DNA from: Blastocatellia bacterium
Lineage (GTDB): Bacteria > Acidobacteriota > Blastocatellia > HR10 > J050
Assembly: GCA_025054955.1 (NCBI GenBank)
Contig: JANWZE010000062.1
Span: forward strand, 1 to 64,000
Length of the DNA stretch: 64,000 bases
Direction of reading: 5' to 3'
Positions 4,843-62,712 of this stretch are shown here, piece after piece. Below the pieces are notes generated by a model. It worked only from the letters and a program-made list of their open reading frames with translations, was not told the origin of the DNA and made no database searches. Position 1 is the first letter of the stretch. Each line of letters opens with the position of its first letter. The translations under genes and the position numbers were made by a program.

Positions 4843-6309
4843 TCAACGAAACTTCACCGAGACCGTTTTTAACCGTGTAAAAAACTGCATAGCCACCTGC
4901 CCTTGCTCGCGAAATGTGTCAGTGCTTGATTTCTTCACGCCGCCGAAGGGTGCGTTGATGGCCACGCCAGTCGTTGGCTGATTGACTTTCACCATCCCAG
5001 CGTTGATCATCTGGGCGAAGCGTTGTGCCCGATTCAGATCACGTGTGCAAATGGAGGCTGAAAGTCCGTACTCAACATCATTGGCCACATGGATTGCTTC
5101 ATCAAAATCGCTCACCTCAAGAATGCTCAGCACCGGGCCGAAAATTTCTTCCTGAGCAATCCTCATGTGCGGTCGCACGCGGCCGAAGATCGTTGGTTCA
5201 ATGAAGTAACCTCGATCGAAACCGTCACCGTCGAGCTTCCTGCCGCCGTGTAACAGTTCAGCCCCCTCTTGCTTGCCGAGCTCAACATAACTGAGAATTG
5301 TTTTCTCTTGATAGCTGTCAGCAACTGGGCCGACTTTTACACCTTCTTGCAACCCATTGCCAATCACCAATTGTTTGGTAGCACGAACAAGTTTCTCCAC
5401 GTACTGTTCCAGTACGGCACGAACCACAATGGCCCGACTGGTTGCTGTGCATGACTGCCCTGTCATGCCGAATGCGCCTTGAACAGTGCAAGCCACAGCT
5501 AAATCCATGTCGGCGTCTTCAAGCACGACAATCGGATTTTTCCCACCCATCTCGAGTTGTGTACGACAAGTCGTCGCGACCCGATGTTGGATCTGATCAC
5601 CCACGTCCCAGGAGCCGGTGAAAGTCACGGCGCTGACGTGCGGGTTGCTGATCAATTCAGGTCCAATCGCCGATGCCGGCCCCGTCAACACGTTGAATAC
5701 GCCGTTGGGGCATCCGGCCTCCACAAGAACCTCGCCAATCTTAATGCCCATCAACGGGGTAAGAGAGGCCGGTTTGAACACAACCGTGTTACCGGCAACT
5801 AACGCCGGGGCGATTTTCCGAGTAGGGATTGTAACGGGAAAGTTCCAGGGTGTAATCACAGATATGACGCCCAGTGGTTCCCTCACCGTGTACAGAAACA
5901 CGCCTGGCTCGTCTGATGGGAGTGTGTCTCCACTGATCAGATAGGCCTGGTTAGCGTAGAACCGCCAGTTGGCCACGGCTCGTTTGATTTCAAACGTGCT
6001 CTCTGCCAATGTCTTGCCTTCCTCACGCGTCAACAATTCGGCCCATTCAGCAGCGTGAGATTCCATTAATTCGGCCACGAGATACAGTAGTTCGGCTCGT
6101 TTGGACGGCGGAGTAGCAGCCCACGCCGGTTGCGCAGCCCGGGCTGCTTCGATGGCCTCTCGCGCCTCGTCGGACGTCGCTTGCTGAAAATATCCGAGAA
6201 CTTCCGCTGTATCGGCGGGATTGATGCTGGCGAAAGTCGCACCACGTGACGATGTGACCCAACGGCCATCAATCAGATTGCTATAAATCTTTGCCAATCC
6301 AGACGGCAT
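4843..6309 (-). CDS. NAD(P)-dependent aldehyde dehydrogenase
   Basis: Full-length ALDH of about 488 residues: ITPWNFPV, the cofactor-side FKPAS motif, TFTGS, catalytic Glu in LEMGGKNP and catalytic Cys in GQSCTATSR. The GQxCTATSR form and general pattern are closest to alpha-ketoglutaric semialdehyde dehydrogenases, so a dicarboxylic semialdehyde is a reasonable substrate guess. The frame is open upstream to 6393, but AGGAAAG sits 8 nt before ATG 6307-6309 and that protein start (MPSGLAKIYSNLIDG) matches family N termini. It is cytoplasmic. It precedes the dihaem cytochrome almost without a gap and follows the aspartate dehydrogenase-like gene. Confidence 0.9.
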   Translation of the reverse strand: MPSGLAKIYSNLIDGRWVTSSRGATFASINPADTAEVLGYFQQATSDEAREAIEAARAAQPAWAATPPSKRAELLYLVAELMESHAAEWAELLTREEGKTLAESTFEIKRAVANWRFYANQAYLISGDTLPSDEPGVFLYTVREPLGVISVITPWNFPVTIPTRKIAPALVAGNTVVFKPASLTPLMGIKIGEVLVEAGCPNGVFNVLTGPASAIGPELISNPHVSAVTFTGSWDVGDQIQHRVATTCRTQLEMGGKNPIVVLEDADMDLAVACTVQGAFGMTGQSCTATSRAIVVRAVLEQYVEKLVRATKQLVIGNGLQEGVKVGPVADSYQEKTILSYVELGKQEGAELLHGGRKLDGDGFDRGYFIEPTIFGRVRPHMRIAQEEIFGPVLSILEVSDFDEAIHVANDVEYGLSASICTRDLNRAQRFAQMINAGMVKVNQPTTGVAINAPFGGVKKSSTDTFREQGQVAMQFFTRLKTVSVKFR

Positions 6310-6483
6310 ATCGTTCACTTTCCTAACGTTCATTTGCGAAACAATCACTTCCCGTCCAAAAGGTGCCGGGTGAACAATCCCACTGCCAACCAAGGCAACT
6401 TTCCTTAAGCGTCAGCCGCGGATACCAGCCGGGCAGCAAAATCGCTTCAGCAAGACCTCGTGTATGGAGACGTGACTGGTGCA

Positions 6484-7911: not shown

Positions 7912-8622
7912 TTAACGATTTGGCGTATCGTCCTCTTTGCCGTAAACAGCATACCAATAAATCCCGTTCATGTGGTTCCAACGCTTCTGCGCAGCCGTTC
8001 GCACCCCTTCGATAGCCGCACGTTGCAGTTCATGTGTATTACAATACTTTTCAGTCATCTGAAATCCACGCGCACTATGAATCTCATCAGCAGCGACGTG
8101 GCCACGGAAGAATCGGATGGCTGGATCGTCTGGCTTCCAACCGTAATTATTATGGAGGCTAGGGATGATGCGCGGGTATATGTGTGGAGGTTGCGACTCA
8201 AGGCCGATCATCAAACTAGCGCATGAAACTTGCCAAGGATTCTGATAGACAAACCGCCATCCCCAATCGGTCAATGCTTGTGTCCAAGGCAGCACCTTAG
8301 CATTGATCACTTCATGGCGTGTGACGCCACATGCCTCGGCATAATCAATCAACATCTCCAGGTGACGGTCCGCCGGGTCTTCCTCTTCCTTGAGATTCTC
8401 AAGGATACTGTCTTTCACATCCTTTTCGGGACAAAGCGCCCAGATGAACGCGAGCCAGTTCAAATACTGGGTGACGAAATGATAGTGCATGACCACATAA
8501 ACAGCTGTCTGCTTTTTGGTCAGTTTCCCCTCTGCCCACAAATCAATGAATGGGTGATCCTTGCTATGCCATTCGTCACGTGCCGCTTTCAGTTGATTCA
8601 AAAATGCATCTGCGTTTGACAT
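7912..8622 (-). CDS. Haem-oxygenase-like diiron oxidase/oxygenase (TenA/PqqC/CADD superfamily)
   Basis: A 236-residue all-helical protein. Six putative iron ligands are visible: E80-x6-H87, E142 in GLESQ and H175-x3-D179-x2-H182. This order and spacing match those of the CADD-type haem-oxygenase-like diiron oxidases (HDO). It is therefore probably an O2-using enzyme and not a thiaminase or PqqC. HDO members do N-oxygenation, C-C cleavage and self-sacrificing or amino-acid-derived reactions, so the substrate cannot be read from sequence. It starts at ATG 8620-8622 after GAGGAG. It lies just downstream of the peroxiredoxin gene. A paralogue lies at 61947-62684. Confidence 0.8.
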   Translation of the reverse strand: MSNADAFLNQLKAARDEWHSKDHPFIDLWAEGKLTKKQTAVYVVMHYHFVTQYLNWLAFIWALCPEKDVKDSILENLKEEEDPADRHLEMLIDYAEACGVTRHEVINAKVLPWTQALTDWGWRFVYQNPWQVSCASLMIGLESQPPHIYPRIIPSLHNNYGWKPDDPAIRFFRGHVAADEIHSARGFQMTEKYCNTHELQRAAIEGVRTAAQKRWNHMNGIYWYAVYGKEDDTPNR

Positions 8623-13811: not shown

Positions 13812-15314
13812 TCATTTCTTGAAATGATTGGCCACGATGCGCTGAGCCGCTAGCACGGCAATCGTAGCAATTGGACCGACAGCATCACCTGACGCGGAGC
13901 GCGGCAACACACTGGCGTCACAGATGAAAAGGTTACTCACATCGTGTGATTCAAATTGAGAATTGACTACCGATGAACGGGCATCGGAACCCGCCCGGCA
14001 TGTGCTCACGCCATGGGCAATATGATAGATAGGAGACATGTCAACGCCGACGATGCTCTTGGCACCCATTTTGTGTAACACCTCGCGCGCCATCTCGCCA
14101 CCTTCGCGCAAGCGACGCTCGATAGATGCACTGCCTTCGTACTCCATCTGTGCAGTGCGCAAATTGATTCGCCCGCGATAGCCTTCGGGCTTCTTCAGCA
14201 CAACCAGGAGCCCCCCCACGTGCATCCGGCCCTTCTTCATGAATTCTTTGTGCGCCTGGCCGAAATCCGGGGCAAACGGACTGAAGGCTAAGGTCCATGG
14301 CTCATGAATGCCAACCATCCCGCTGTCTTTCACTCGCAGCCGGCTGTATCCGTTCGGACCAGCATCGTCCAGAAAGAAAAACCCGGCCGGTGCAGCGCCG
14401 CGCGAGCCATCCTTGATCGGTTCATCAAAGTATGCGCTCACCACAATGGCCGCGTGAATATCCAAATGCCTTCCGATATTCGGATTCTCAGCTATGCAGT
14501 TCGTCCCTAAGTCTTCTTTTGATCCATATCCTGATCTCAAAAGCAACAGGGGAGTACCAATAACGCCAGCGCTCACAATCACGTACTGAGCGTGTAGCCT
14601 TGTAGACCGGCCAGCTTGCCGGATCACAACCCCCGTTGCCGTAGGCCGGGCCCTCTTTTTTTCGATTACAACGCGCTCGACCAGGGCATTAGGTATGATC
14701 TCGACACCATACTGCTCAGCTAGTGGAATATAGGTTGTCAGCGCGGTCATTTTGCTGTCATACCGACAGAAGTACCCGCCCTCACAAAAGCCGCAATACA
14801 GGCAGTTGCGTCGCGCGACGAGCGCCGGATGAACTTGGCGGCCAAGCGCGCGCGCCGCCTCACGAAAAAGCAGACTTCCCTTGCTCAGCACAATGTCGGG
14901 TTCAGCATGAATGTTGTACATCTGCTTGACTTCTGCCGCAGCCTCACGGCACTGTTCCTCTGTCCAGTCGGTTCCTTCCGCGACCCAATGCATATAGTCA
15001 ACATCATAAGGTAAGTAGACACTCGCGCCATAGTGCATTGTTGTGCCCCCGACCATCTTCACCATGCCCCACGGCCAAAGACGATCTGAGGCGTCATCAC
15101 TGAACACGTTAGTGATCAATTGTCGTCGTCGTGGATGGCCGTAGCCCGGTCGCGGCTCGCCTTTCCAGTATGGCCCTGCCTCAATCAACGCAATATGGAG
15201 CCGGTCTCCATTTCGGCTGTTGACACCTTTCTCAGCGATGCGCGCTGCCAGGATGCTGCCGGCTACGCCGGAACCTACAATGACGACATCGTAATGATTT
15301 CGTCTCGGTTTCAT
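13812..15314 (-). CDS. GMC-family flavin oxidoreductase, gluconate dehydrogenase-like large subunit
   Basis: 500-residue FAD enzyme: dinucleotide-binding VIVGSGVAGSILAA, LIEAG and MVGGTTMHYG near residue 88, and a C-terminal GMC block with AHGVSTCRAGSD and LFICDASVLPRS. The first catalytic His is present (AHGVSTC). The second His/Asn position (near SGDAVGPIAT) is not clearly conserved. Four cysteines, C171-x2-C174-x2-C177-x5-C183, could bind an iron-sulfur cluster, as in FAD-glucose dehydrogenases. No signal is visible; such subunits are carried out by a Tat-bearing partner, and the gene directly upstream (15343-15996) encodes exactly that type. It probably oxidises an alcohol or sugar and passes electrons to a cytochrome. 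Confidence 0.88.
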   Translation of the reverse strand: MKPRRNHYDVVIVGSGVAGSILAARIAEKGVNSRNGDRLHIALIEAGPYWKGEPRPGYGHPRRRQLITNVFSDDASDRLWPWGMVKMVGGTTMHYGASVYLPYDVDYMHWVAEGTDWTEEQCREAAAEVKQMYNIHAEPDIVLSKGSLLFREAARALGRQVHPALVARRNCLYCGFCEGGYFCRYDSKMTALTTYIPLAEQYGVEIIPNALVERVVIEKKRARPTATGVVIRQAGRSTRLHAQYVIVSAGVIGTPLLLLRSGYGSKEDLGTNCIAENPNIGRHLDIHAAIVVSAYFDEPIKDGSRGAAPAGFFFLDDAGPNGYSRLRVKDSGMVGIHEPWTLAFSPFAPDFGQAHKEFMKKGRMHVGGLLVVLKKPEGYRGRINLRTAQMEYEGSASIERRLREGGEMAREVLHKMGAKSIVGVDMSPIYHIAHGVSTCRAGSDARSSVVNSQFESHDVSNLFICDASVLPRSASGDAVGPIATIAVLAAQRIVANHFKK

Positions 15315-15342: not shown

Positions 15343-15996
15343 TCACTGATCCCAGGTGATCGGCTTGAAATGAGCGCGACGGGCTTCTTCTTCCTCCCAG
15401 CTTAATGGTCCCTCGAAGCCGGCGATGTCCCACCCAGTTACCAACTCTTTTGTGTTTGGATTAGTGATCTGATGCAAATCACTAGGTTTGAGGATCGGCA
15501 CGCCATGCCGGTCCCGCGGAATCACGTTTTCCGGATAATTTTGATAAAAGACCATAAACACTCGCGTGCGCGTTCGGCGATAGACGCGCTGCAACGTTCT
15601 CAACTGCGCTGTATCAGCGAATTGAGTGCCATCAATGATCAGTCGAAGATACTCAGCGCGCTGGGACTCAGTGAGTTGAAGGAACGTCCGACCATCAAAG
15701 AATGCGCCGCATCCTCTATCAAAGACTCCGAGGTCAGCATCAGAAATCGCCTCCAACCCTTTCATCACTTCCATCGTGATTTTGTAGGGCTCAAGGCTTC
15801 TATAACCGGGATCTCCGGGGCTTGTTGGAATCAAGGTGTCACCCAGCGCCGCAAAGATTGCATGACGATCTATGACTGGCTTAGCAGCCTGGTTACGGCC
15901 AGGCGCCAGCTCCGGCGTCACCGCTGTTACCAGGAGAGAACTGACAGCAGACTGCTTCAAAAACGCCCGACGCGAAATCTTTTTCTTCTTCGACAT
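15343..15996 (-). CDS. Tat-exported gluconate 2-dehydrogenase subunit 3-like protein
   Basis: 217 residues with a twin-arginine leader (ISRRAFLKQS, residues 8-17), then the family block AIFAALGDTLIPTSPGDPGYRSLE and the C-terminal ITNPNTKELVTGWDIAGFEGPLSWEEEEARR. This small subunit partners the GMC flavoprotein and carries it through the Tat pathway in gluconate and FAD-glucose dehydrogenases (family knowledge). It sits 28 bp upstream of the GMC gene in the same direction, so the two probably form one complex. The protein at 17131-17877 is a close paralogue. Confidence 0.9.
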   Translation of the reverse strand: MSKKKKISRRAFLKQSAVSSLLVTAVTPELAPGRNQAAKPVIDRHAIFAALGDTLIPTSPGDPGYRSLEPYKITMEVMKGLEAISDADLGVFDRGCGAFFDGRTFLQLTESQRAEYLRLIIDGTQFADTAQLRTLQRVYRRTRTRVFMVFYQNYPENVIPRDRHGVPILKPSDLHQITNPNTKELVTGWDIAGFEGPLSWEEEEARRAHFKPITWDQ

Positions 15997-16002
15997 GATG
16001 CG

Positions 16003-16308
16003 TTACAGGTCTCCAAGCAGCTCCATCATTTTTGGATAGGTGAAGTGAATCGCTGGCCACATCACAACCGTTGATGCCATGCCTGAAGACCGAATCACAG
16101 CCGCTACTCGGTATGCTGATTCGACACTGGGAACATCGAGAACATCCATGAAATCGTAAGGACCAAGCAGGGCTAAATGGTGAGTGACATTCACTTCGGG
16201 ACAAGCAGCTTTGTACTGAGCGCCAACTTGGCGGCCAATCTCTTCCATCGTTTTGAAATTCTTGGCCAGTTCCGGTGACATCTTGATCAGCATGACGAAC
16301 GTAACCAT
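16003..16308 (-). CDS. GYD-domain protein (copy 1)
   Basis: 101-residue single-domain protein beginning MVTFVMLIKMSPELAKN, with TMEEIGRQVGA and LALLGPYDFMDVLDVP, the hallmark of GYD domains, which are small ferredoxin-like dimeric alpha+beta folds. The biochemical role is unknown. It is cytoplasmic by sequence, starts after GGGGGACACC, and is 9 nt from the near-duplicate upstream. The pair lies between the Dabb and Tat-subunit genes of the redox operon. Confidence 0.88.
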   Translation of the reverse strand: MVTFVMLIKMSPELAKNFKTMEEIGRQVGAQYKAACPEVNVTHHLALLGPYDFMDVLDVPSVESAYRVAAVIRSSGMASTVVMWPAIHFTYPKMMELLGDL

Positions 16309-16317
16309 GGTGTCCCC

Positions 16318-16620
16318 CTAAGTGATTTCTCTGGTTAATTCCAGCAGTTTGGCATATGGCAGTGCCGTCCACGTTTCGACTTCCGAGGCAAACCCTGACG
16401 AGAGAATGACCGAGGCCATCTTGAACACTGTTTCTTCATTCGGCGCCTCCAGAATATCCATGAAGTCATACGGACCAAGCAACGCCAAGTGAGCGGTGAC
16501 ATTGACCTCAGGGCACGCAGCCCGATATTTCGCGCCAACCTGCCGGCCAATCTCTTCCATCGTTTTGAAATTCTTGGCCAATTGTGGCGACATTTTAATC
16601 AGCATGACAAACGTAGCCAT
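16318..16620 (-). CDS. GYD-domain protein (copy 2)
   Basis: 100 residues, clearly the tandem duplicate of the gene at 16003: MATFVMLIKMSPQLAKN, the same TMEEIGRQVGA helix, CPEVNVTAHLALLGPYDFMDIL. The C-terminal third has diverged (VETWTALPYAKLLELT), which suggests different partners or ligands. It may assemble as a heterodimer with copy 1. No signal peptide. Confidence 0.88.
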   Translation of the reverse strand: MATFVMLIKMSPQLAKNFKTMEEIGRQVGAKYRAACPEVNVTAHLALLGPYDFMDILEAPNEETVFKMASVILSSGFASEVETWTALPYAKLLELTREIT

Positions 16621-16634
16621 CTGTACCTCCTTGA

Positions 16635-17018
16635 TTACTCGTTAACAATATCAATGACAACTTCGTCTTCAACATACGGCTTATACTGTTCATGCAACCG
16701 CATACTCTGTGGACTTTTGGCATATGCCGCCTTGGCTTCAAGGTTGATGAAATCAATGGAAATGCCATATTGATATTTCGTCCAACGACTCGTCTGCCTG
16801 CCAACCACAATGTTCGCTGCGCCCTTAATAGTCGGTAATGTCGCTTTGGTGTCAACCAGTATTTTCTCAACCATTTCCTGTGATACATCCGGCTTGAAGT
16901 TAAACGCCACGGTATGGCGCAGGATGCCTTTGGGCACCCGTCTACGTTCAGCATGAACGGCAAGCACGATGCCGACCAGACAGAGCAATATCGAACAAAG
17001 TAATATCGTTCGTTTCAT
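16635..17018 (-). CDS. Secreted Dabb-type (stress-responsive alpha/beta barrel) protein
   Basis: 127 residues. Signal peptide about 1-21 (RTILLCSILLCLVGIVLAVHA), then a Dabb barrel: ILRHTVAFNFKPDVS, KATLPTIKGAANIVVGRQ, YQYGISIDFINLEAKAAYAKSPQS, HEQYKPYVEDEVVIDI. Dabb proteins are small dimeric barrels, and one plant member is a polyketide cyclase; the role here is unknown. AAGGAGC precedes ATG 17016-17018. A paralogue lies at 51904-52299. Confidence 0.87.
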   Translation of the reverse strand: MKRTILLCSILLCLVGIVLAVHAERRRVPKGILRHTVAFNFKPDVSQEMVEKILVDTKATLPTIKGAANIVVGRQTSRWTKYQYGISIDFINLEAKAAYAKSPQSMRLHEQYKPYVEDEVVIDIVNE

Positions 17019-17130
17019 ATCAAGCTCCTTGTCGGTAGAACGAAAGATAAAAAACATGAAGAGCGGCACCTCGTCTCCCTTTCACTCTTCTGTCTTATGA
17101 TTCTCGATGGGAATTCGGGCAAGTGGAGTC

Positions 17131-17877
17131 TCATTCCTGCCAACGAATTTTCTTAAAGAAATTGCGACGACGCTCCTCTTCTTCCCAAGTTAACGGTCCT
17201 GCATAACCGGCTAAATCCCAGCCTGTTGGAATCTCAGGCGTGTTCGGATTGGTGATCTGATGGGTATCCCCTGGCTTCAACAAAGGCACACCCATCGCAT
17301 CGAATGGCCAACGATCCTGTGGAAAGTTTTGATAGTACGTCACGAAAACAGCCTCTCGTGTATTCGTGTACACAGTCATGAGCTTTTCATGGAGTGACTT
17401 GTCAGTGAAACCAGTCGCCGTGATAATGCGATGCAGGTACTGCGCGCGATCTATCTCAGACAACTCCGTGAATTTCTTTCCGAATAGCGGCACGCTTGCC
17501 TCATTAAACAGCTTCAATCCCTCATCTGTCACATTCTCTATTCGTCGTTCAACCTCAGCAGTAATACAATACCATTCCAAATCCTTGTACCCGGGGTCGC
17601 CGGGTGCTGAAGGGATCAAGGTGTCGCCAATAGCGAACAGAATGGCTCGACGATCTATCGTTGGCTCTTCGTCTTGTTGTGTGTTCCCTATTGCGGCCGA
17701 GATGAATGCGGATTCTGGCGCATCTTGCAGCGCCGAGTGAGCGCCCGTTGCAGCAGTTGACTTCAGCACTGTTAGACCGGCGACTGTAGCCGTTCCGGCA
17801 CTGGCGCTATGCTTAATGAACTCACGTCGTGAGACCCCTTTACGGCACGTCTGCTTCTTTTTCGCCTTCTTGTTCAT
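17131..17877 (-). CDS. Tat-exported gluconate 2-dehydrogenase subunit 3-like protein (second copy)
   Basis: 248 residues. Twin-arginine leader VSRREFIKHSASAG at about 16-29, then AILFAIGDTLIPSAPGDPGYKDLE and the C-terminal ITNPNTPEIPTGWDLAGYAGPLTWEEEERRR. It has a longer linker after the leader than the 15343 paralogue. No GMC gene is directly adjacent. The likely flavoprotein partner is the GMC protein at 23874, or both small subunits may share partners. ATG 17875-17877 is used; an in-frame ATG at 17904 would overlap the upstream hydrolase gene. Confidence 0.88.
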   Translation of the reverse strand: MNKKAKKKQTCRKGVSRREFIKHSASAGTATVAGLTVLKSTAATGAHSALQDAPESAFISAAIGNTQQDEEPTIDRRAILFAIGDTLIPSAPGDPGYKDLEWYCITAEVERRIENVTDEGLKLFNEASVPLFGKKFTELSEIDRAQYLHRIITATGFTDKSLHEKLMTVYTNTREAVFVTYYQNFPQDRWPFDAMGVPLLKPGDTHQITNPNTPEIPTGWDLAGYAGPLTWEEEERRRNFFKKIRWQE

Positions 17878-17893
17878 CGTGCTCTGCCTTTGC

Positions 17894-19360
17894 TTATAAA
17901 TCAAACTTCGGTTTCAGCCAACTAACAATCATTGGCTGGATTTCCTCATTGAGGTCAAAGATTTGATAGCCGACCGCCCCGCCCGGATACTCGACGAGAT
18001 GGCCGCCGCGGTCCCGATTGAGACGATAATAGTCACGGAATGCATCAGCGATAGGGGGCAATCCTTGACTAGACACAAACAGGATTGGGAACTGTGCCCT
18101 GGCAACATCTTCGCGATCCGGCAATCCGCCGAGTGCCACAAATGATTTCACTCGATCATCCATGACGGCTGCATCCAATCCATACTTAGCGCCGATAGAT
18201 GTGCCGATGATGGCAAGTTGACGACCATTGACACCTTTCTGCGATCCGAGAAAGTCCATGGCCGCCCGAACATCTAGGTAGGTTTTCGCTCGCTCTTCGA
18301 GCGACAAATAGAAATAGGTTCCTTTACCGATACTTTTGCCTCTACCACGAAAATCCAGATTGAGCACAGCAAAACCCGCGTCAGCCAGCAGTCGCTCAAG
18401 GTGATCAAACACGTGCCGATCAGTGAGGTATGAATGTATCAGGATCGCACCCGGCGCACCGCTAGCGCGACTCTGCGCCGGCTGGCGAAACGTTGCATAG
18501 ATTGTCCAACCATCCTGTGTTTGAAATGACACTTCTCGCGCGAGCCGTTGCAGCTTAGGAACAAACCACTCAGCAACATGCCATTCGAGCTGTTTCTCGC
18601 CGGCTCGCGTCGCCGCCCACATGATAAACATTGAATTACCGATGCCGAGATTCTGGTAAATCCACACATCACTCCCTGGATTACGTGAGAGTTTGTAGAC
18701 ATCGGTCATGTCAATGAACCCGGCCCTGTCTTCTTTAGTCACTAGACATAGCACCGGTAGATCATCGCGGGATGGGATGAGCTCTTTCGTTTTTTCACTC
18801 AGCCGCCCGGACAGCAGCACAATGGCTCGCACGCGTGAATCTTTTATCGCCGCGCGAACGGCCGCATCAGCACTGGCACCTTCTGCGACAATGCCGATGT
18901 GATCGGCAATTACCTGCGGCTGACGACTGAGAAAGTCAATGGCGCCACTTACATCTAAAGCAACACGTTCACGTTGCTCGTTGGTGAACGTATGGTACTC
19001 CTGTGGTTCAGCGCTCTTGCCCCGCCCGCGAATGTCAATGCGCAATGTGATTGTTTTGCCGAGCGCCGTCCGCAGGTTTTCTTGAGCATATCGCTCTACC
19101 CCGATTTGATGCCGTCCCAGATAAATATCACGATCATGAGCCGGAGAGTGAACCAACACCACAGCCGGGACCTTGTCACTCCCAGCGACCATCACCGGCA
19201 CGCTCAATGTCCCGTGAATGACCCAGCCATCTTCTGCTTTGAATGAAATCTCTGTTTCGTGGAATCTCGTTTCCAAGCCAGTTCCCTGTGTTGTTGAGGC
19301 TAACACGAACGTATTCACCAACAAGATTACAGCCCATACACCACCTACAATGCTCTGCAT
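17894..19360 (-). CDS. Secreted tandem alpha/beta-hydrolase; only copy with a Ser nucleophile
   Basis: 488 residues, signal peptide about 1-25. Domain 1 (about 36-270): HDRDIYLGRHQIG, DIRGRGKS, elbow A-E-G-A-S with Gly161 in the Ser position, LLSGRLSEK, acid candidate in TKEDRAGF, and Asn at the His position (GIGNSMF). Domain 2 (about 276-488): DFRGRGKS and a canonical G-T-S-I-G elbow (S388), but no His in GGAVGYQIF and no obvious acid after the next strand. It is therefore the family member closest to an active enzyme. GAGGACG precedes ATG 19358-19360. It lies between the triheme cytochrome and a Tat small subunit. Confidence 0.87.
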   Translation of the reverse strand: MQSIVGGVWAVILLVNTFVLASTTQGTGLETRFHETEISFKAEDGWVIHGTLSVPVMVAGSDKVPAVVLVHSPAHDRDIYLGRHQIGVERYAQENLRTALGKTITLRIDIRGRGKSAEPQEYHTFTNEQRERVALDVSGAIDFLSRQPQVIADHIGIVAEGASADAAVRAAIKDSRVRAIVLLSGRLSEKTKELIPSRDDLPVLCLVTKEDRAGFIDMTDVYKLSRNPGSDVWIYQNLGIGNSMFIMWAATRAGEKQLEWHVAEWFVPKLQRLAREVSFQTQDGWTIYATFRQPAQSRASGAPGAILIHSYLTDRHVFDHLERLLADAGFAVLNLDFRGRGKSIGKGTYFYLSLEERAKTYLDVRAAMDFLGSQKGVNGRQLAIIGTSIGAKYGLDAAVMDDRVKSFVALGGLPDREDVARAQFPILFVSSQGLPPIADAFRDYYRLNRDRGGHLVEYPGGAVGYQIFDLNEEIQPMIVSWLKPKFDL

Positions 19361-19406
19361 GACGTCCTCATCCCAATAATGATTCACTGTCTTTCTATCA
19401 TGGCGT

Positions 19407-20270
19407 TTACCGTTTTGATTCAACGGAAGCAAAGTGCTGAGCCAGATAGCTGACCATCACTTCACATTCAGCAACGGTCAATTGTGCCCCGCGAGCGACC
19501 ATATCGTGAACTGTATGCCTCCAACCTTCAACTGTTTTTCTCTGATCTGTGACGTAGCCTAGATTGTGACATTGAACGCATGCCGTTACAACAAGCTGCT
19601 TACCTTCGCCATCAGGTAATGACTGTGAGACTCGTGCTACGGCGTTTTGCTGCATACCAACTTGATTGGTCGGAACTGCCACATTGGATGAGTGAGGGCC
19701 GAAGTTTTCGGCAAGGTAGGCGACGAGTCGGGGCACTTCTTCCGGCCTCAACTTGGCGCCAAGCCGTATCATATCTTTGACGCTACTGTGCCAGCCTGAT
19801 TCATCTTTGCGATTGTGTGTTATCCGGTCCATTGGATGACACTGTATGCAGGCTCTGAGAATGATGGCCTTCGCCTCACCTTCCGGTAATTCCTGCCGAG
19901 CGGGTGCGCCGTGATAAACGTTCACCGCCGTTCCAGAGCCTGTGGATTCAGTCACCAACCTTGCGTTACGACCAAAATAGCGTGACAAGTAATCAACAAT
20001 CAGGGGAATTTCCTCTGCCTGCACTTGCGCTCCGCGAGCGACCATGTCATGCACCGTATGTTTCCACTCAGTAGGCGTTTTGCGTTGAAGCGCAATTAAA
20101 TTCAAAGTATGACACTGTACACATGTACCCAGAATGAGCCCCTTACCTTCGCCGTCGGGGAGCTCAACTCCTTGAGGACTTTCTACCATTTGGGCATGCA
20201 GGACGCTGGCAACGCACACCAGGCACAAGAATAGGGCCACAACTTGCCTTCTTCTTTGAAAAGGTTGCAT
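19407..20270 (-). CDS. Secreted triheme cytochrome c built of three repeated domains
   Basis: 287 residues: signal peptide about 1-26, then three homologous modules, each LP(D/E)GE-x(7,9)-C-x2-CH followed by a ...W..(T/S)V.DM helix. Haem sites are CVQCH 50-54, CIQCH 141-145 and CVQCH 231-235; the Met in the (H/K)DM motif is the likely sixth ligand. The same module occurs once in the HhH fusion at 35995. It probably takes electrons from the GMC complexes, replacing the classical triheme subunit of gluconate dehydrogenase. It is encoded 11 bp after the ThDP enzyme. The start is ATG 20268-20270; upstream in-frame codons would run into the ThDP gene. Confidence 0.88.
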   Translation of the reverse strand: MQPFQRRRQVVALFLCLVCVASVLHAQMVESPQGVELPDGEGKGLILGTCVQCHTLNLIALQRKTPTEWKHTVHDMVARGAQVQAEEIPLIVDYLSRYFGRNARLVTESTGSGTAVNVYHGAPARQELPEGEAKAIILRACIQCHPMDRITHNRKDESGWHSSVKDMIRLGAKLRPEEVPRLVAYLAENFGPHSSNVAVPTNQVGMQQNAVARVSQSLPDGEGKQLVVTACVQCHNLGYVTDQRKTVEGWRHTVHDMVARGAQLTVAECEVMVSYLAQHFASVESKR

Positions 20271-20281
20271 TCGTCTTTCCC

Positions 20282-22177
20282 TCAAACCCGTCGCGAACGC
20301 CGCTCGGCAACAGAGTAGCGTGGAAACCAAGTTGATTCCGAACCGATCCCCGTGCGCTCGATGATTACGTCCAACAGATACGGCCGGCCGTCGCGTGTCG
20401 CGCGAATAGCTCGATTCAACGCCGCTTGAATACTATCAGGATCGCTGACTACCTCACCAGCGATTCCGAATCCGGCTGCCAGCTTGGCGAAATCCACATC
20501 AGGCTGACCAAGATAGCAGGCCATATCTTTGCCAGTTTGCCCCTGTTTGCTCATCTTACCCAAAATGCGTTGACGCGGTTCATTGTAACTGCGATTGTTG
20601 AAGACAACCGTGATGACCGGCACCTCATATCGAGCCATCGTCCACAGCGCTTCAACCTGGCCAAACAAGAATGCTCCGTCGCCAACAAACGAGACAACTT
20701 GACGATTCGGTTGGGCAAACTTGGCACCGATCGAAAGTCCTACCCCCCAACCAAGCGCCTGCTGAATGGTGCGCCCGATGCGCAGACGTCCATTCCGACT
20801 GGTTCTGATATAACTGTATGCCTTTGTCTTCTCCGTACTCAACTCATCAACGATAATGGCATCAGGATCAAGGGCACGATCCAGCTCAATAGCCAGCCGA
20901 GGCCAGGATATCGGCTTGTTGGTCCAATTTGCTCTTGCCACGGCATCGAGTGATTCGCGCATGGATTGATTAAATGCGCGGATTTCCTCCACACGTGGCT
21001 TGGCAATCGAGGCGAGACGTTCAGTAGTAGCCATGCTCCGAATAGCGGCAATCAAATCCAAGATGAACGACCTGGGGTCGGCCAAAACCGGCAGCGTTGC
21101 TGGCTGGGCTTTGTTAATTTCACCCGGTTCGGTCGTAACATGAATCGTTTTGGCCATGCCCACTCGTGGCATGAACCCACCGAAAACAAGCACTAAGTCT
21201 ACGCTTGACGGAAATCGCACAGTCGGCGCAACATCAGCATTGATATAGAGGGGATGATCAGTCGGAAAACAATCTGTCCATGAATCAATCACCACGCGCA
21301 TAGCAGGGATACCAAGCAATTCCGCCAGCTCGATCGCAGCCGATTGCGCACCGCTCACCCATGCCTCATCGCCGACATACAGACACGGACTTTTGGCCTC
21401 TAACAACATCCTGGCCGCTGCTTCGACGGCTCCCGGTGGCGCTTTGATGACAGTCGGCACTTTGAATTTTTCCTGTGGAATGATCACCGCCGTCGTCTCA
21501 CCTGCCAGAATATCTTCAGGATAGTTGATAGATACGGGTCCGCCGGGCGCAGTCATGGCTACACGGATCGCACGTCGTGTAATGTCGGGGAGCACGTCAG
21601 TCGTCGGCACGTGCCAATGCCACTTCGATGTTGAATTGACTGCTCCGAGCAAACTCCTACCGCCATAGATCCCTTCGCGCTCCTCATACCTTGATGGCAC
21701 CATGTCGGTTGCCACCATCACCGGCAATCGTGCTGTCATGGCGTTATACATATTTGACGAAGCGTGCGGTGCGCCGGCCACTGAGCAGGCAACCACACCA
21801 AGCTTTCCCGACGCCATCGTATAACCCGAGGCAATCGCCACCGCCTGCCCCTCTTCGACTGACAGAATAGGGTGAATATCGGTGCGGTCAATGAATGCAT
21901 CATAGACAGTTCTCAAATGTGAAGAATTGCCAATGATGACAAATTCTGTGCCCGCCGCAGCCCATTGCTCGACCAGTACATCTGCCCCAGTTCCTTTCAC
22001 AGTCTTATAGCCAATTGTCCCGTCTGTCCTCAGCGGTGCTCCCGCGACAACGAATGGGTTCAACGACTCTAACACGCTTTCAGCCGCAACGGTGCTGAAT
22101 CCAGCCGCCACCATCTTTCTCAAAAAGCCGCGTCGCGATAGGTTGTGATTGAGAAATTCTGTGACCAGTTCGCGCAT
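20282..22177 (-). CDS. Tat-exported thiamine diphosphate-dependent enzyme (acetolactate synthase / benzoylformate decarboxylase-like)
   Basis: 631 residues with all three ThDP-enzyme domains. Catalytic Glu is E109 (SVEEGQA) in the PYR domain. The ThDP motif VGDGAFLFG starts near 498 and ends with FNNRSYN near 526-532. Ahead of the first domain is a twin-arginine leader, LSRRGFLRKMVAAGF (13-27). Enzymes of this superfamily are normally cytoplasmic, and Tat export would allow cofactor loading before transport. The substrate is probably a 2-oxo acid or acyloin, not known. ATG 22175-22177 follows GGAGAG. It heads a run with the triheme cytochrome, a tandem hydrolase and the Tat small subunit. Confidence 0.82.
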   Translation of the reverse strand: MRELVTEFLNHNLSRRGFLRKMVAAGFSTVAAESVLESLNPFVVAGAPLRTDGTIGYKTVKGTGADVLVEQWAAAGTEFVIIGNSSHLRTVYDAFIDRTDIHPILSVEEGQAVAIASGYTMASGKLGVVACSVAGAPHASSNMYNAMTARLPVMVATDMVPSRYEEREGIYGGRSLLGAVNSTSKWHWHVPTTDVLPDITRRAIRVAMTAPGGPVSINYPEDILAGETTAVIIPQEKFKVPTVIKAPPGAVEAAARMLLEAKSPCLYVGDEAWVSGAQSAAIELAELLGIPAMRVVIDSWTDCFPTDHPLYINADVAPTVRFPSSVDLVLVFGGFMPRVGMAKTIHVTTEPGEINKAQPATLPVLADPRSFILDLIAAIRSMATTERLASIAKPRVEEIRAFNQSMRESLDAVARANWTNKPISWPRLAIELDRALDPDAIIVDELSTEKTKAYSYIRTSRNGRLRIGRTIQQALGWGVGLSIGAKFAQPNRQVVSFVGDGAFLFGQVEALWTMARYEVPVITVVFNNRSYNEPRQRILGKMSKQGQTGKDMACYLGQPDVDFAKLAAGFGIAGEVVSDPDSIQAALNRAIRATRDGRPYLLDVIIERTGIGSESTWFPRYSVAERRSRRV

Positions 22178-22381
22178 AGGAACTCTCCATTATAAAAGAC
22201 AACTATACCAACACATACGTACCAAGTAGCGGGCGCACTTTCTGTCCTGCTTAATTCTCCCTGCGACCGTCCTCCTTGATCTCTTCAGTGGCATCAGTGC
22301 AGCCTCTGCATCTTTCTGGGTAACCCCACCACTCGTTCTTATCTGCTGATTATCGAAAACGGCTCGCTTTGAAACAAGCTG
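22178..22381. other. 204-bp intergenic gap upstream of the ThDP gene
   Basis: A minus-strand TATAAT lies at 22189-22194, but only about 12 nt from the start codon and without a good -35, so a promoter call is weak. No hairpin stands out. The gap is one of the few places in the cluster where a new transcript could begin. Confidence 0.3.
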
Positions 22382-23848
22382 TCATGGTTGATGGGTCACG
22401 GCTGATCGCCGGCCACGCATGGTCAATTGCCTCTCCAGCCAATTCGGCCGCATGATGGTTGGCTTGGGGGTTGGAATAGAATAATCAGAATGATAGGTCA
22501 TATCAACTAGCTCTCCATCTTTGATCACCATCGCGATGCGCTGCGTATGACGAATATCATCAAGCGGATTGGCATGAAGGATAACGAGGTCGGCTAACTT
22601 ACCGGGCGTGATGGTGCCCAGTGTTTTTCCTTGTCCCATGAACTGCGCATTCTCTTTGGTTGCCATTGAAATGACCTTAAGCGGCGAGAATCCTGCATCA
22701 ACGAGCATCGCCATCTCCCGATGAAGGCTCAGGCCCGGAATTGACAAAAATGTGTCCGACCCAGCCAGCACTTTGCCTCCGGCTCGATGGTGCTGCCGGA
22801 GAAGCTCTTGAACCTTGTTGCTGGCGGTCTCTAGCTGTGCCAGATCATCTGCATTCTTTGCCCGGAAGATGAACGACGATCTCCAGACTTGACGCACCTG
22901 TTCAGGTACGTAAGCCAGAGCAGGATTGCTTGCGTATTCAGCATCCTGGCGAGCAAAATCGTCACGACGGGGTGATGCAATGCGCCACCAATTCGACATG
23001 GTAGGAATCAGCGCGACGTTTCTGGCAGCCAGAAACTTCACCAACTCGACAGCCTTAGCTGAATCAATACGCGCATAGTTCTTTAACTCCCAGATGGCTT
23101 TTTCTAAATCATCCTTACCTGGATACTCTGGGATCGGTCCGGTAGCAGTAGCCTCCACGACTCCACTGGCATGCTCCAACCCATCAATCCCAGCGAGCGC
23201 CGCCTGGCGAGCGTCGAGATGGCCAATATGGCCAGTCACATGCATCCCCAGCTTGTGAGCCTCTTCTGTGATGGCCCGTAACAAATCGAAAGTAATCTTC
23301 TCTCTCACTTTCACGGCCGTTGCGCCGCGCTGATGTTGAAGTCGGACTGCCCGCCTGGCCATGTCGGGCGTCTGGACGGCTATATGTGAATCCCGAACCG
23401 GCGGCGGTGCATCAATCCCATATCCAACATACAGAATGCGAGGACCGCGCATGCGTCCCCGTTCAACATCCCGGCTCACACTGGAAATCCACTCGATAGG
23501 ATTGCCAACATCTTTGACTGTCGTCACGCCATGAACCAAAAACAACTCCCCCATCCAATCAAAGTAATGCACGTGCAGATCAATGAAGCCTGGTAATAAG
23601 AACTTGCCGGAAACATCGAACACGCGCGCCGTCCCAGGGATGTTGACCTCATGTTGCCGCCCAACTTGAGCGATCTTTCTTCCTTTGATGACGACGGTAT
23701 GCTGAAGCGGAGGGCCGCCGTGGCCATCAATGACCGTGCCACCAACCAACGCGATGATTGGTTCCGATAGCACTGGCGCTGGTGCCAGACCTGGGCAGAT
23801 AGTCAGAGCAGCGAGGGCCAATGACACAATATACGAACGAACCTGCAT
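22382..23848 (-). CDS. Secreted imidazolonepropionase-like amidohydrolase (RPxWLERQL-tail subfamily)
   Basis: 488 residues, signal peptide about 1-28. TIM-barrel amidohydrolase with H92-x-H94 (DLHVHY), Lys180 in ATAVKVREK (carbamylated metal bridge), H207 (VTGHIGH), H226 (LEHASG) and D365 (LAGSDT). The shared block GELFLVHGVTTVKDVGNPIEWIS and the C-terminal tail ending RPNWLERQL mark a subfamily of four in this window (also 28855, 45604, 50437). It probably cleaves a cyclic or linear amide, or a lactone, in the periplasm. AGGGAGGTGC precedes ATG 23846-23848. The stop lies 204 bp upstream of the ThDP gene. Confidence 0.87.
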   Translation of the reverse strand: MQVRSYIVSLALAALTICPGLAPAPVLSEPIIALVGGTVIDGHGGPPLQHTVVIKGRKIAQVGRQHEVNIPGTARVFDVSGKFLLPGFIDLHVHYFDWMGELFLVHGVTTVKDVGNPIEWISSVSRDVERGRMRGPRILYVGYGIDAPPPVRDSHIAVQTPDMARRAVRLQHQRGATAVKVREKITFDLLRAITEEAHKLGMHVTGHIGHLDARQAALAGIDGLEHASGVVEATATGPIPEYPGKDDLEKAIWELKNYARIDSAKAVELVKFLAARNVALIPTMSNWWRIASPRRDDFARQDAEYASNPALAYVPEQVRQVWRSSFIFRAKNADDLAQLETASNKVQELLRQHHRAGGKVLAGSDTFLSIPGLSLHREMAMLVDAGFSPLKVISMATKENAQFMGQGKTLGTITPGKLADLVILHANPLDDIRHTQRIAMVIKDGELVDMTYHSDYSIPTPKPTIMRPNWLERQLTMRGRRSAVTHQP

Positions 23849-23873
23849 CTGCACCTCCCTGCTGGCGGACCGA

Positions 23874-25634
23874 TCACCGCGTTTTCTTTGTGAAGTGTCG
23901 GGCGATAATTCGGTCAGAAGCAAAAATAGAAACAATACCGACAGTCAAAAACAATCCCAGCGTTGGCGAGCGCGGAATCGAGCCGGCGTCAACGATGAAT
24001 AATCCTTCCACGTCGTGCGATTCGAAATGTGAGTTAATAACAGAATTCTTTGGATCAGCTCCAGCTCGACATCCACCAACGAGCCATTTAAACGTCAGGC
24101 CGCCACTAGGAATAATTGGCTCGGCAATGATTTTCTTGGCTCCCATCTTCTGGAGAACCGTTTTAGCCAGCTCCTGCCCGGCAGCAAATTTTTTATAGAC
24201 CTCCGGATGAATCTCATGATAGATCCGCTCTTGCTTACCGGTTTCCTTGCTGTGCTTAATGACCTCCTCGCCGAAGATTTGCACACGGCTGTATCGGTCA
24301 ATTCTTCCGCGTGGCGCGGCACGCGGCAATTTCATATCTACGGCCAGGCGGGCGACGTGAAACAGCGGGTCGCGGGCCTTGAGCGAGGCGGCTGATGGTG
24401 TAGCCCACGGATTGCAAATCTGGCGCATGTACTCCTTGTGTTCCCAACCAAACGCTGGCGTCAATCGAATGACGTCACTAAACGCTTGACCATATGGCGG
24501 CGCAAACGGCGAAAGTGCCAGCCGTTCAGGAAATCCATTCCAAAAACTGTAAAACGGTGGCGCCGCATATCCGTTGAGCAGCACAATACGATCCTCACCG
24601 ATGCGCGTCTGAAAGTGCAGTAGCGGATCAACACCCCACCCCCCATCCATGCCGCCGACCCGTTCGGAGAAAAGGCCAATCACCCCGATCTGCCCACCTT
24701 CTCCATAATGTCCGTCAACGTTACGACCAACGTTGGGGTTTTCAACGATCAGGCCACGGCCACAATCCTCCTTTGAACCATATCCCGATGCAAACAGCAG
24801 TGGGGGCGTTTCCAAATCTCCGCAACTGACAATGACTTTCTTGGCCAGGATCGTGATCTCTTTGGCCTGATTCCAATCAACGAAATCATCTCCAGGGTAA
24901 ACCTCATCCGGCAAATCCAGTTTCCTGATGATCACGCCACGCGCCACGGCTTTGCCGCCGCTTCGCTCAATAATGATTTTCTGGGCACGTGCGTTGGGGA
25001 TAATGTCTACACCATTTCGTTCGGCAATGGGAGCATGCGTAATGAGCGTTGTCGCCTTGGAATCGTATTTGCAAATTTGACGCTCGGCACAATGTCCACA
25101 AAAGATGCAGTTTTTCACTGCCCGCGAATGTCCCGGCCTCACCTCATATCCCATGCTCTCAGCCGCCCGTTTGAACAACTCACTCGCCCGACGATTGGAC
25201 AACGTCTGCTCGGGAGGAAACTCAACATTGAAGACATGTCGCGCTTCCTCCACCGCCGATTTCATATTCTCTTTACTCCAATCCGTGCCGGTTTCTTCTT
25301 GCCACTCATCATAGTCTTCATCGAACGGAAACCAGGCGCCGCTGCCAAAGATAAGCGAGCTACCGCCCACGCCCCGCCCTCGTCCTTGGGCGGTGACAAA
25401 GTGGCTACCGAATTTAATATCTCGCGGCATGTTTGTGAATACCTGCCGGCGCAACGGAATACCATAACCCGGTTTGGGCGCGCCCCGTAGATAAGCGCCT
25501 GCCTCAACCATTGCGATCTTCAACCGCTGGCCGGTTTCAGGATTGACGCCCTTCTCGGAAATTTTTGCTGCCAAAATGCAACCGGCTGTTCCACCGCCAA
25601 CGATGACCAGGTCATAGGTTCTCACATCAGCCAT
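23874..25634 (-). CDS. GMC-family oxidoreductase with altered active site
   Basis: 586 residues. FAD-binding LVIVGGGTAGCILAA and MVEAG, GVGGSSLIFGSG near 88-99, cysteine set C176-x2-C179-x2-C182-x5-C188 as in the paralogue at 13812, and the C-terminal block GGCRAGADP and LFIVDAGSIPRS. Where the paralogue has the catalytic His (AHGVSTC), this protein has FKWLVGGC, with Trp in the aligned position; the second His/Asn position is also not evident (SPTLGLFLTV). It may still be a dehydrogenase using other residues. The gene starts 4 nt after the amidohydrolase at 25639. It probably works with a Tat small subunit, since it has no leader. Confidence 0.82.
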   Translation of the reverse strand: MADVRTYDLVIVGGGTAGCILAAKISEKGVNPETGQRLKIAMVEAGAYLRGAPKPGYGIPLRRQVFTNMPRDIKFGSHFVTAQGRGRGVGGSSLIFGSGAWFPFDEDYDEWQEETGTDWSKENMKSAVEEARHVFNVEFPPEQTLSNRRASELFKRAAESMGYEVRPGHSRAVKNCIFCGHCAERQICKYDSKATTLITHAPIAERNGVDIIPNARAQKIIIERSGGKAVARGVIIRKLDLPDEVYPGDDFVDWNQAKEITILAKKVIVSCGDLETPPLLFASGYGSKEDCGRGLIVENPNVGRNVDGHYGEGGQIGVIGLFSERVGGMDGGWGVDPLLHFQTRIGEDRIVLLNGYAAPPFYSFWNGFPERLALSPFAPPYGQAFSDVIRLTPAFGWEHKEYMRQICNPWATPSAASLKARDPLFHVARLAVDMKLPRAAPRGRIDRYSRVQIFGEEVIKHSKETGKQERIYHEIHPEVYKKFAAGQELAKTVLQKMGAKKIIAEPIIPSGGLTFKWLVGGCRAGADPKNSVINSHFESHDVEGLFIVDAGSIPRSPTLGLFLTVGIVSIFASDRIIARHFTKKTR

Positions 25635-25638
25635 AATT

Positions 25639-27105
25639 CTATTCCATAATCTTTTTGACAGCGCCCTCAATTACTGTTCCCTTGAAGAAGTCACGATTCA
25701 TTCCAGCCAAAAATGAGACAGGATTGGTGAAAACGAAGTCGCGAAAATCTTCCTCAGTAATGAGACGTTTTTCGACTAATTCATAAGCCTCTTCAACCAC
25801 CTCGGCCATATCCGGCACATCCCAATGGGAAATATCCGAACTGAAGATGGCGTTGAGCCGCGCACCAAATGGATTGATTTTGTCATTAAACGCCCAGGCA
25901 TTCATTGGATCATCGGCTTCGCAGCCGAAGTAGAAGTTAGTGACGAACAGATCACGAATATCCTCTGCCTCCTCAATCTGACAGAGTGACCATTCATCCA
26001 GGTTCTCTGGTTCAGGCCCCATCTCCATAACGCCCGCGCCCGCGCCCAGTTTCAGTGGGTCTCGACCAAGTCGGTCCAGCTTTTCAACCATGTGCCCGCC
26101 ATAACGCTGAAATAGATCAAAGTAGAGCTGCCGGTCCAGGTTGGCCGGATTTACAGCCTCTAGAGCCCGAATATTCCTCTTCTCCCAGTGTCCGACCAGG
26201 TCCGCATACAAACGGCAGGCCCAACCAACGCCGCCTTCCAAGAAACCGAACTTCATCGTTGGAAACCGTCTCGTCACGCCCCCTATGAACAATGACTTGC
26301 ATACCGCTTCACCGGCCGTGGCGAAATTGCCGATGTGATTGTACACGTATGTCGAAATGGAACTATGCCCGCCCCAACCGGTTGCTCCCGAATGGAACCC
26401 TACGGGGATACCGAGCTCGACACACTTGGACCACACTGGATCATAATCATACTCGCTATCGAGGCCGTATGTATCCACCCAAAAGACCCAGCGAGCGGCT
26501 TCGGGCGCCTCTCGCACAGCAGCAGGGATGGGGCGACGCACATAGCTTTGCATGAAGGCGATCTTCAGTCTCAAGACATTCACCACGTACTCAAGTTCTT
26601 CGATCGCTTCTTGTGGCGTGTATGTGGGAATAATTGCAGCAGCGGTGATACGATCCGAATAGTCTCGATACAGGTCAGCATAGTACGTGTTATAGGCGCG
26701 ACACACTGCGCGGCGCACCTCTTCATCTTTCGGCGTGGTCGCCGTCATCCCAACGGAAGGAAACAGGATGGCAAAGTCAATGCCAAACTCATCAAGCCGC
26801 TCATACAGCAGTTTGGGCAAAGTAGCAGTGGCGCGATCCAGTGTGTTTTTTGTCGGCGCCCCCCACCAAGGCGCGCGGGGAACTCGGCGCTCACGTCGCT
26901 CCTCCAGAGTGAACTGCCCACCACCGAACAATCGGCTGCCAGCAACTGCTGAGAGATACCTATCTACGACTTTTGCGCCACCGACCTGCTTGATGTAATC
27001 TAATACATCCGGTTCAAACTCGATCATGTGTCCATCACTATCAATTACCGGATGTCCCAACCGAGCACGAACGGCCGCCGATTTCGAGGTGTGAGAATGA
27101 CTCAT
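25639..27105 (-). CDS. Amidohydrolase_2 (ACMSD-like) metal-dependent hydrolase/decarboxylase
   Basis: 488 residues. Starts VIDSDGHMIEFEP, the D-x-D-x-H form of the first metal motif. Later come PVGFHSGATGWGG (His), FGFLEGGVGWACRLYADLVGHWE (the family helix with His) and FSSDISHWDVPD (catalytic Asp). The family includes ACMSD, gamma-resorcylate decarboxylase and related hydratases and hydrolases, so ring or carboxyl chemistry is plausible. It is long for the family, with an insertion around residues 200-250. No signal peptide. GGAGGG precedes ATG 27103-27105, which decides the start over codons further upstream. Confidence 0.82.
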   Translation of the reverse strand: MSHSHTSKSAAVRARLGHPVIDSDGHMIEFEPDVLDYIKQVGGAKVVDRYLSAVAGSRLFGGGQFTLEERRERRVPRAPWWGAPTKNTLDRATATLPKLLYERLDEFGIDFAILFPSVGMTATTPKDEEVRRAVCRAYNTYYADLYRDYSDRITAAAIIPTYTPQEAIEELEYVVNVLRLKIAFMQSYVRRPIPAAVREAPEAARWVFWVDTYGLDSEYDYDPVWSKCVELGIPVGFHSGATGWGGHSSISTYVYNHIGNFATAGEAVCKSLFIGGVTRRFPTMKFGFLEGGVGWACRLYADLVGHWEKRNIRALEAVNPANLDRQLYFDLFQRYGGHMVEKLDRLGRDPLKLGAGAGVMEMGPEPENLDEWSLCQIEEAEDIRDLFVTNFYFGCEADDPMNAWAFNDKINPFGARLNAIFSSDISHWDVPDMAEVVEEAYELVEKRLITEEDFRDFVFTNPVSFLAGMNRDFFKGTVIEGAVKKIME

Positions 27106-27390
27106 ATACCCTCCATGTGAGGTCATCAAACTCCTATATGCTCGAGACGTGCTCTGGAATCCAGAATCCACCACAAGGACGCCAAGGGGGCTAATACCAA
27201 ATGCCGAGTGAAGATCAGACATTCCCGCTCAGTCAGTTTAGCTCCCGCCATGCTGTTTGACTCCATGAATTATGAACGAGGTCTTTAAGAAAAACAGGCC
27301 GGGCGTGGCTGGCCACAATCATCAGCGCAGACGATATTGACTCTCATTCCAGTGTCCACTTATGTGCGTCTCTCTTCGCTCTTGCCGCCT
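27106..27390. other. 285-bp intergenic gap
   Basis: No gene, strong hairpin or convincing promoter seen. The frame of the downstream gene stays open to 27222, but that stretch lacks family similarity. It separates the 27391-62684 block from the 22-27 kb block and is the likeliest internal promoter site by position only. Confidence 0.35.
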
Positions 27391-35994: not shown

Positions 35995-36543
35995 TCATTT
36001 GTCCGCGACCAAGTAAGGCTTGACCTGTTCTAGCAAGGTCTTATCAAAACCGGCCAGTCGCGCTAGTTGCTCGACCGACGTAAAACGTCGCTTGGATTGA
36101 CGAGCCTCAACAATGGCATGGGCCATCTGGGAGCTAATGCCCGGCACACGAGCCAAAGCCTCGACCGAAGCTGTGTTGATATTGAGCGGCAATCGGTCAA
36201 TAGGATTTTCTTCGCCAAAATGGCGGGCAAGATAGCCAACCAGCAGTGGCACATCCTGCGGATCAACTGGCGCACCATACATCGTCACCATGTTCTGAAC
36301 CGTTTGGCTCCAACTCAAGCTCGTTTTCCTCTGGGTCGCAATCTGTCGGAAATCATGACAGCCCGAACATGACATGACAACCTCGGTTCGGCCATCACCT
36401 TCCGGTAGGAATACGCTCCAGTCAGGCTTCTGACCGACAGCGTGTTGGATCACCGCACGTCTATCCGACTCAATGACACCAAGTGCAATCCCCACAAACA
36501 ACAATGAGATAAGAACCAGTATCGCTACTTTTGAGGCAACCAT
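35995..36543 (-). CDS. Secreted cytochrome c module fused to a ComEA-like helix-hairpin-helix domain
   Basis: 182 residues. Signal peptide or anchor about 1-23. Residues 45-112 are one copy of the module found three times in the triheme cytochrome at 19407 (CSGCH 59-63, later a Met in VQNMVTMYGA). Residues 121-178 are a double helix-hairpin-helix: NINTASVEALARVPGIS and FTSVEQLARLAGFDK, as in ComEA-type proteins that bind DNA or act as a compact spacer. This fusion is unusual. An electron-transfer role is likely; what the HhH binds is open. ATG 36541-36543 starts 13 nt after the M29-like gene stop. Confidence 0.85.
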   Translation of the reverse strand: MVASKVAILVLISLLFVGIALGVIESDRRAVIQHAVGQKPDWSVFLPEGDGRTEVVMSCSGCHDFRQIATQRKTSLSWSQTVQNMVTMYGAPVDPQDVPLLVGYLARHFGEENPIDRLPLNINTASVEALARVPGISSQMAHAIVEARQSKRRFTSVEQLARLAGFDKTLLEQVKPYLVADK

Positions 36544-36556
36544 ATAGACGTCCCAC

Positions 36557-62684: not shown

Positions 62685-62712
62685 AATCACATCTCCTTAA
62701 AAAATTGGCTCC

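Follow-up and report, generated by a model that had tools for sequence, protein, structure and literature searches.

A putatively Tat-exported thiamine diphosphate enzyme paired with a c-type cytochrome in Acidobacteriota and some proteobacteria

As read from its genes, the 64,000-nucleotide stretch of a Blastocatellia bacterium analysed here (contig JANWZE010000062.1, hereafter the window) carries an intact thiamine diphosphate (ThDP) enzyme with a conserved twin-arginine leader, in an operon with a predicted exported cytochrome, and pairs of this kind recur in two clades. Export of the enzyme is strongly supported by these comparisons. We infer that its substrates are 2-oxo acids and that the cytochrome obtains its electrons from the ThDP intermediate itself, not from a neighbouring GMC flavoenzyme. 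Our leading, though tentative, reading is therefore a periplasmic ThDP-dependent 2-oxo-acid (oxidative) decarboxylase. The protein would fold and load ThDP and Mg in the cytoplasm, would be exported by Tat in its folded form and would (oxidatively) decarboxylate a 2-oxo acid in the periplasm, while the co-translated triheme cytochrome c would take the electrons of the reaction and pass them to the respiratory chain. If true, some proteobacteria and a phylum widespread in soil could break down 2-oxo acids in the periplasm, as a respiratory step linked to cytochromes.

Members of this ThDP superfamily are, to our knowledge, usually regarded as cytoplasmic. In the open-access literature, no account of an exported ThDP enzyme with a cytochrome partner was found, and thiamine is mentioned neither in a review of Tat cargo (PMC6708511) nor in an experimental survey of Tat substrates in P. 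aeruginosa (PMC6085387).

The ThDP gene, its leader and its cytochrome partner

The features of the locus are listed in Table 1. The open reading frame of the ThDP gene is intact and matches the Pfam domains TPP_enzyme_N, TPP_enzyme_M and TPP_enzyme_C in that order. A confident AlphaFold2 model (pLDDT 89, pTM 0.86) retrieved HKA synthase, glyoxylate carboligase, 4-hydroxybenzoylformate decarboxylase, AHAS and cyclohexane-1,2-dione hydrolase (CDH) in Foldseek, and the modelled fold is of the benzoylformate-decarboxylase (BFD)/acetolactate-synthase (ALS) type. With its PYR, middle and PP domains, the catalytic Glu at residue 109 and the GDG...NN motif at residues 499 and 527, the protein belongs to the ThDP-dependent decarboxylase/ALS/POX-type superfamily, and the preliminary description was right to call it a complete three-domain enzyme.

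Table 1. Features of the ThDP operon and its surroundings (window coordinates)
Feature	Position	Strand	Remarks
Three-domain ThDP-dependent enzyme, 631 aa	20282..22177	-	Pfam TPP_enzyme_N/M/C, AlphaFold2, Foldseek
Tat leader (predicted), residues 1-46	22040..22177	-	conserved across 33 homologues
Twin-arginine motif SRRGFL, residues 14-19	22121..22138	-	R15, R16 33/33; F18 32/33
Shine-Dalgarno-like GGAGAG 5' of ATG	22183..22188	-	read off sequence
Catalytic Glu109 codon	21851..21853	-	E109 invariant in 33-row alignment A3
ThDP/Mg binding motif GDG(499)...NN(527)	20594..20683	-	D500, G501, N528 invariant in A3
Triheme c-type cytochrome, three tandem SorB/QHNDH-like domains	19407..20270	-	Sec-type signal; listed ORF starts at 20330
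Two-domain alpha/beta hydrolase	17894..19432	-	syntenic in G014
Tat-led gluconate-2-dehydrogenase subunit 3-like protein	17131..17904	-	orthologue L026:8456-9268 matches PF13618 and TAT_signal
Dabb-domain protein	16635..17069	-	domain match
Two tandem GYD-domain proteins	16003..16620	-	16318-16620 by domain match; downstream copy by sequence similarity
Tat-led gluconate-2-dehydrogenase subunit 3-like protein	15343..15996	-	orthologue L026:6479-7138 matches PF13618, E 0.00045
GMC oxidoreductase, alternative electron donor for the cytochrome	13812..15314	-	domain match
Amidohydrolase	22382..23935	-	nearest curated model Xaa-Pro dipeptidase, below cut-off
GMC oxidoreductase	23874..25670	-	
Amidohydro_2 protein	25639..27222	-	
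Aldehyde dehydrogenase of the same island	4843..6393	-	kept in G014 (71%)

The leader (MRELVTEFLNHNLSRRGFLRKMVAAGFS) opens with an ATG, and a mis-called start was ruled out by the ribosome site upstream of it together with the conservation of the leader. Its letters (MRELVTEFLNHNLSRRGFLRKMVAAGFSTVAAESVLESLNPFVVAGAP) include SRRGFLRK, which agrees with the S/T-R-R-x-F-L-K type of Tat motif. Like the two arginines, G26 is kept in all 33 aligned homologues. Mean pairwise identity among these homologues is 0.44 over leader columns 1-28, compared with 0.37-0.45 in the core. This conservation is unusually high for a signal peptide, and the N-terminal helix may have a role beyond targeting. Cleavage probably occurs near VVAGA-P. 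Two other ThDP enzymes of the same genome turned up by the search, and both are leaderless.

The neighbouring cytochrome contains three CxxCH motifs in one set of three tandem repeats of ~90 residues. It probably starts at the ATG at 20270 and carries a Sec-type signal (RRRQVVALFLCLVCVASVLHAQ); with this start, 11 bp separate it from the stop codon of the ThDP gene. The earlier placement of the ThDP gene directly before a triheme cytochrome is confirmed. An orthologue with 49% identity occupies the same position at L026:10814-11716. The three repeats match the haem domains of SorB-type proteins and of the alpha subunit of quinohemoprotein amine dehydrogenase (QHNDH). In contrast to these systems, the window cytochrome has three repeats per chain, with a SorB score slightly below the cut-off of that model, and its partner is a ThDP enzyme and not a molybdenum or quinone enzyme.

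Two clades with the ThDP-cytochrome pair

Homologues were sampled in 396 genomes of Acidobacteriota and, beyond the phylum, on plasmids. Leader-spanning ThDP homologues were identified in 37 of the 396 genomes, so the suggestion that export of this superfamily is rare needs correction for Acidobacteriota, where ThDP enzymes with such leaders are not especially uncommon. In a tree built from the core only, with the leader left out, the 37 proteins form one clade (support 96/97), which rules out the leader itself as the cause of their grouping. The preliminary description had named leaderless homologues with downstream starts as one of the observations that would count against it. This objection did not hold: the 18 leaderless ThDP rows in this tree fall on other branches. 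Contamination or a unique oddity was likewise ruled out, as a 67% relative in another acidobacterium (L004/L026) has the same operon and the island is syntenic.

A second, distinct Tat-led ThDP clade (clade B) comprises L091-L095 and L097 in Acidobacteriota, and its plasmid-borne relatives in Caballeronia zhejiangensis and Novosphingobium sp. KACC 22771 carry a Tat-ThDP and cytochrome c pair. Clade B leaders are of the classical Tat type: with the NCBI Tat model TIGR01409, the two tested acidobacterial leaders scored above the cut-off and that of Novosphingobium scored at it. The tree, with two changes, suggests that the leader was gained separately in the two clades; a strict reading would still admit a single origin for both.

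Cytochrome linkage was scored when a secreted CxxCH ORF lay on the same strand, <=300 bp from the ThDP gene. Such an ORF adjoins the gene in 11 of the 18 members of the window's 18-row subclade and in 7 of the 8 Tat members of clade B. It was found in none of the remaining 19 sequences of the 37-row clade, and one leader-bearing subclade of 15 members lacks a cytochrome neighbour altogether. In the acidobacterial part of clade B, the partner is a small monohaem cytochrome (5/6 loci). In Caballeronia, the Tat-ThDP gene and an annotated c-type cytochrome gene are 8 bases apart, and the Novosphingobium cytochrome is also adjacent. Leaderless controls gave 0/22 (0/16 acidobacterial ThDP genes and 0/6 proteobacterial relatives of clade B), and the background on the same contigs was 14 of 272 ORFs. 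Fisher tests on these counts returned 4e-9, 0.005 and 3e-4, values that overstate the case because the sequences are related and not phylogenetically independent.

Among the loci counted, cytochrome linkage was thus found only with leader-bearing enzymes. An aldehyde dehydrogenase gene adjoins two of the six leaderless proteobacterial relatives, which would be expected if the two arrangements carry out similar chemistry but differ in electron acceptor. The recurrence of a putative exported ThDP enzyme with cytochrome c in two clades makes a stronger case than the preliminary description of a single gene suggested, and the Caballeronia pair makes the reading testable in a cultured organism.

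Electron path and competing readings

The window enzyme shares its fold, domain order, catalytic Glu, GDG...NN motif and the equivalent of Ser26 with benzoylformate decarboxylase of P. putida (MdlC, 1bfd), and BFD is the best solved match of the leader-bearing relative L082. Unlike BFD, it has a leader and a cytochrome partner. Membership in the BFD family itself is contradicted by the absence of a His70 equivalent throughout the window's subclade, where Ser26 is kept, and by a score of 159.6 bits against a cut-off of 493 in the curated BFD model PRK07092. The His is present in leader-bearing members outside this subclade and also in clade B, which has the cytochrome. Being confined to one branch, the loss of His70 counts as a single event and is only a hint.

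The FAD motifs of the genome's own ALS (GMHG, FDDR, IDIDP) were absent from the window protein and from all leader-bearing rows compared, and an FAD-dependent oxidase is therefore not supported. Pyruvate oxidases (PoxB/POX) are cytosolic and FAD-dependent. They would share with the window enzyme an oxidative decarboxylation that depends on ThDP and runs independently of NAD, but the missing POX/ALS-type FAD motif makes an electron path like that of pyruvate oxidase unlikely, and electrons would have to pass directly from ThDP to haem. Ferricyanide can be reduced by the decarboxylated ThDP intermediates of enzymes that lack flavin, which makes haem reduction conceivable without FAD and direct transfer possible. 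The boldest form of this proposal, a flavin-free and iron-sulfur-free Tat-exported ThDP respiratory dehydrogenase of a new kind, whose decarboxylated ThDP intermediate would hand electrons straight to periplasmic c-type haem and which possibly arose twice, is in our view rather doubtful.

A substantial alternative, which we consider a real possibility and only somewhat less probable than oxidative decarboxylation, is an exported enzyme whose reaction is not oxidative. As a BFD-like decarboxylase or C-C lyase of the periplasm, it would make an aldehyde, and the cytochrome would serve a three-part, gluconate-dehydrogenase-like complex of the GMC enzyme and subunit 3 encoded in the operon. The cytochrome does have an alternative donor in the GMC and Tat-led subunit 3-like genes, which are also present in the G014 counterpart, and all three component types of gluconate 2-dehydrogenase (GMC enzyme, Tat-led subunit 3, cytochrome c) occur in the operon or its relatives. 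At L027 the order is ThDP, Tat-led subunit 3, GMC and pentahaem cytochrome, the cytochrome following the GMC gene and not the ThDP gene. The conserved aldehyde dehydrogenase of the island, the Ser26 and His70 equivalents of related Tat-led enzymes, and a plausible source of 2-oxo acid at L062 (a Tat-led aminotransferase and an M24 peptidase directly downstream) fit the same reading. It accounts less well for clade B and for L064, L068, L074, L083 and L089, where a cytochrome adjoins the ThDP gene and no GMC gene was recognised among the neighbours, or for the loss of His70 in the window's own subclade. In several loci, the pair has no recognised flavin dehydrogenase of any kind next to it. In contrast to gluconate 2-dehydrogenase, the set here includes a ThDP enzyme with the cytochrome adjoining its gene, and the subunit 3-like proteins of the window could be identified only by way of their orthologues.

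Positions 5526-7346 of L069, which lie upstream of its Tat-ThDP and diheme cytochrome genes, encode a flavocytochrome-like protein that combines an FAD_binding_2 domain with three CxxCH motifs. This gene, the GMC and subunit 3-like genes and the L027 order together make a redox link between the operon and cytochrome c well supported, and leave a direct link from the ThDP enzyme unproven. The earlier proposal of oxidative decarboxylation outside the cytoplasm with electrons going to haem is thus partly supported. The location has the leader conservation, the second Tat-led clade, the cytochrome linkage and TatC in its favour; the step from ThDP to haem, with the FAD motif missing and the GMC enzyme as a rival donor, is the conjectural part.

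Tat export itself is well supported by a leader kept throughout the 37-member clade, by the second Tat-led clade, by the TatC encoded in the genome and by the link with cytochromes of the c type, which receive their haem outside the cytoplasm. It is improbable that the enzyme stays in the cytosol, with the N-terminal segment acting as a conserved helical extension and the cytochrome merely co-transcribed. The high conservation would suit such an extension, as would the short, weak h-region (11 uncharged residues, then a Glu, with acidic residues beyond) and the TIGR01409 result, in which the window leader gave no match and relatives of its own clade scored 8-17 bits against a cut-off of 16.7. 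These features are outweighed by RR-x-F and G26 in the 33 homologues, by the alanine-rich segment that follows the RR motif in their leaders, often with A-x-A-like sites, by the classical leaders of the separate clade B, some above the cut-off, and by the confinement of cytochrome linkage to leader-bearing enzymes.

Very unlikely is a periplasmic carboligase or CDH-like C-C hydrolase whose chemistry does not involve the cytochrome: BbmA (HKA synthase, 8x3x) and CDH (2pgn) are the best solved relatives and top sequence and fold matches, and the active-site loop GNSSHL resembles GHTSHF of CDH, but identity to either is only ~23%, outside the window protein the SSH loop occurs only in the 67% relative (L065: PSSHN), and the repeated cytochrome linkage would be left unexplained. 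CDH is described as requiring both FAD and ThDP, and we know of no leader or cytochrome for BbmA or CDH.

The surrounding catabolic island

The operon lies in a same-strand catabolic island of almost 60 kb (window 2806-62690, minus strand) that is rich in paralogous amidohydrolases, MFS transporters and alpha/beta hydrolases. The island also encodes an outer-membrane TonB-type receptor, an acyl-CoA dehydrogenase, a thiolase, an AMP ligase, a luciferase-type monooxygenase, GMC enzymes and an aldehyde dehydrogenase. A 38-kb contig of G014 matches much of it and keeps the order ThDP, cytochrome, hydrolase, subunit 3, GYD, subunit 3, GMC.

Several further genes of the island, all on the minus strand, were recorded. 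The small protein encoded at 35995-36585 is an odd fusion: it starts with a membrane or signal segment, has a single haem domain of the SorB-like CxxCH type and ends in a helix-hairpin-helix domain. Between this gene and an MFS gene, 36557-38089 encodes a protein of 510 aa that has a signal-like N terminus and matched nothing in Pfam. Near the two ends of the island, 7912-8622 and 61947-62690 encode haem-oxygenase-like/TENA-type iron-containing redox enzymes (PF14518).

Unusual neighbours were also observed at other Tat-ThDP loci. At L062:4344-8867, the gene of the Tat-led ThDP enzyme precedes those of a Tat-led PLP aminotransferase and a Tat-led M24 peptidase, possibly an exported route by which peptides would yield amino acids and these in turn 2-oxo acids. 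The arrangement was seen at this locus only, and an exported aminotransferase was ruled out as a general partner of the clade. At L060:7745-8740, a haem domain fused to a metallo-beta-lactamase-fold domain adjoins the Tat-ThDP gene.
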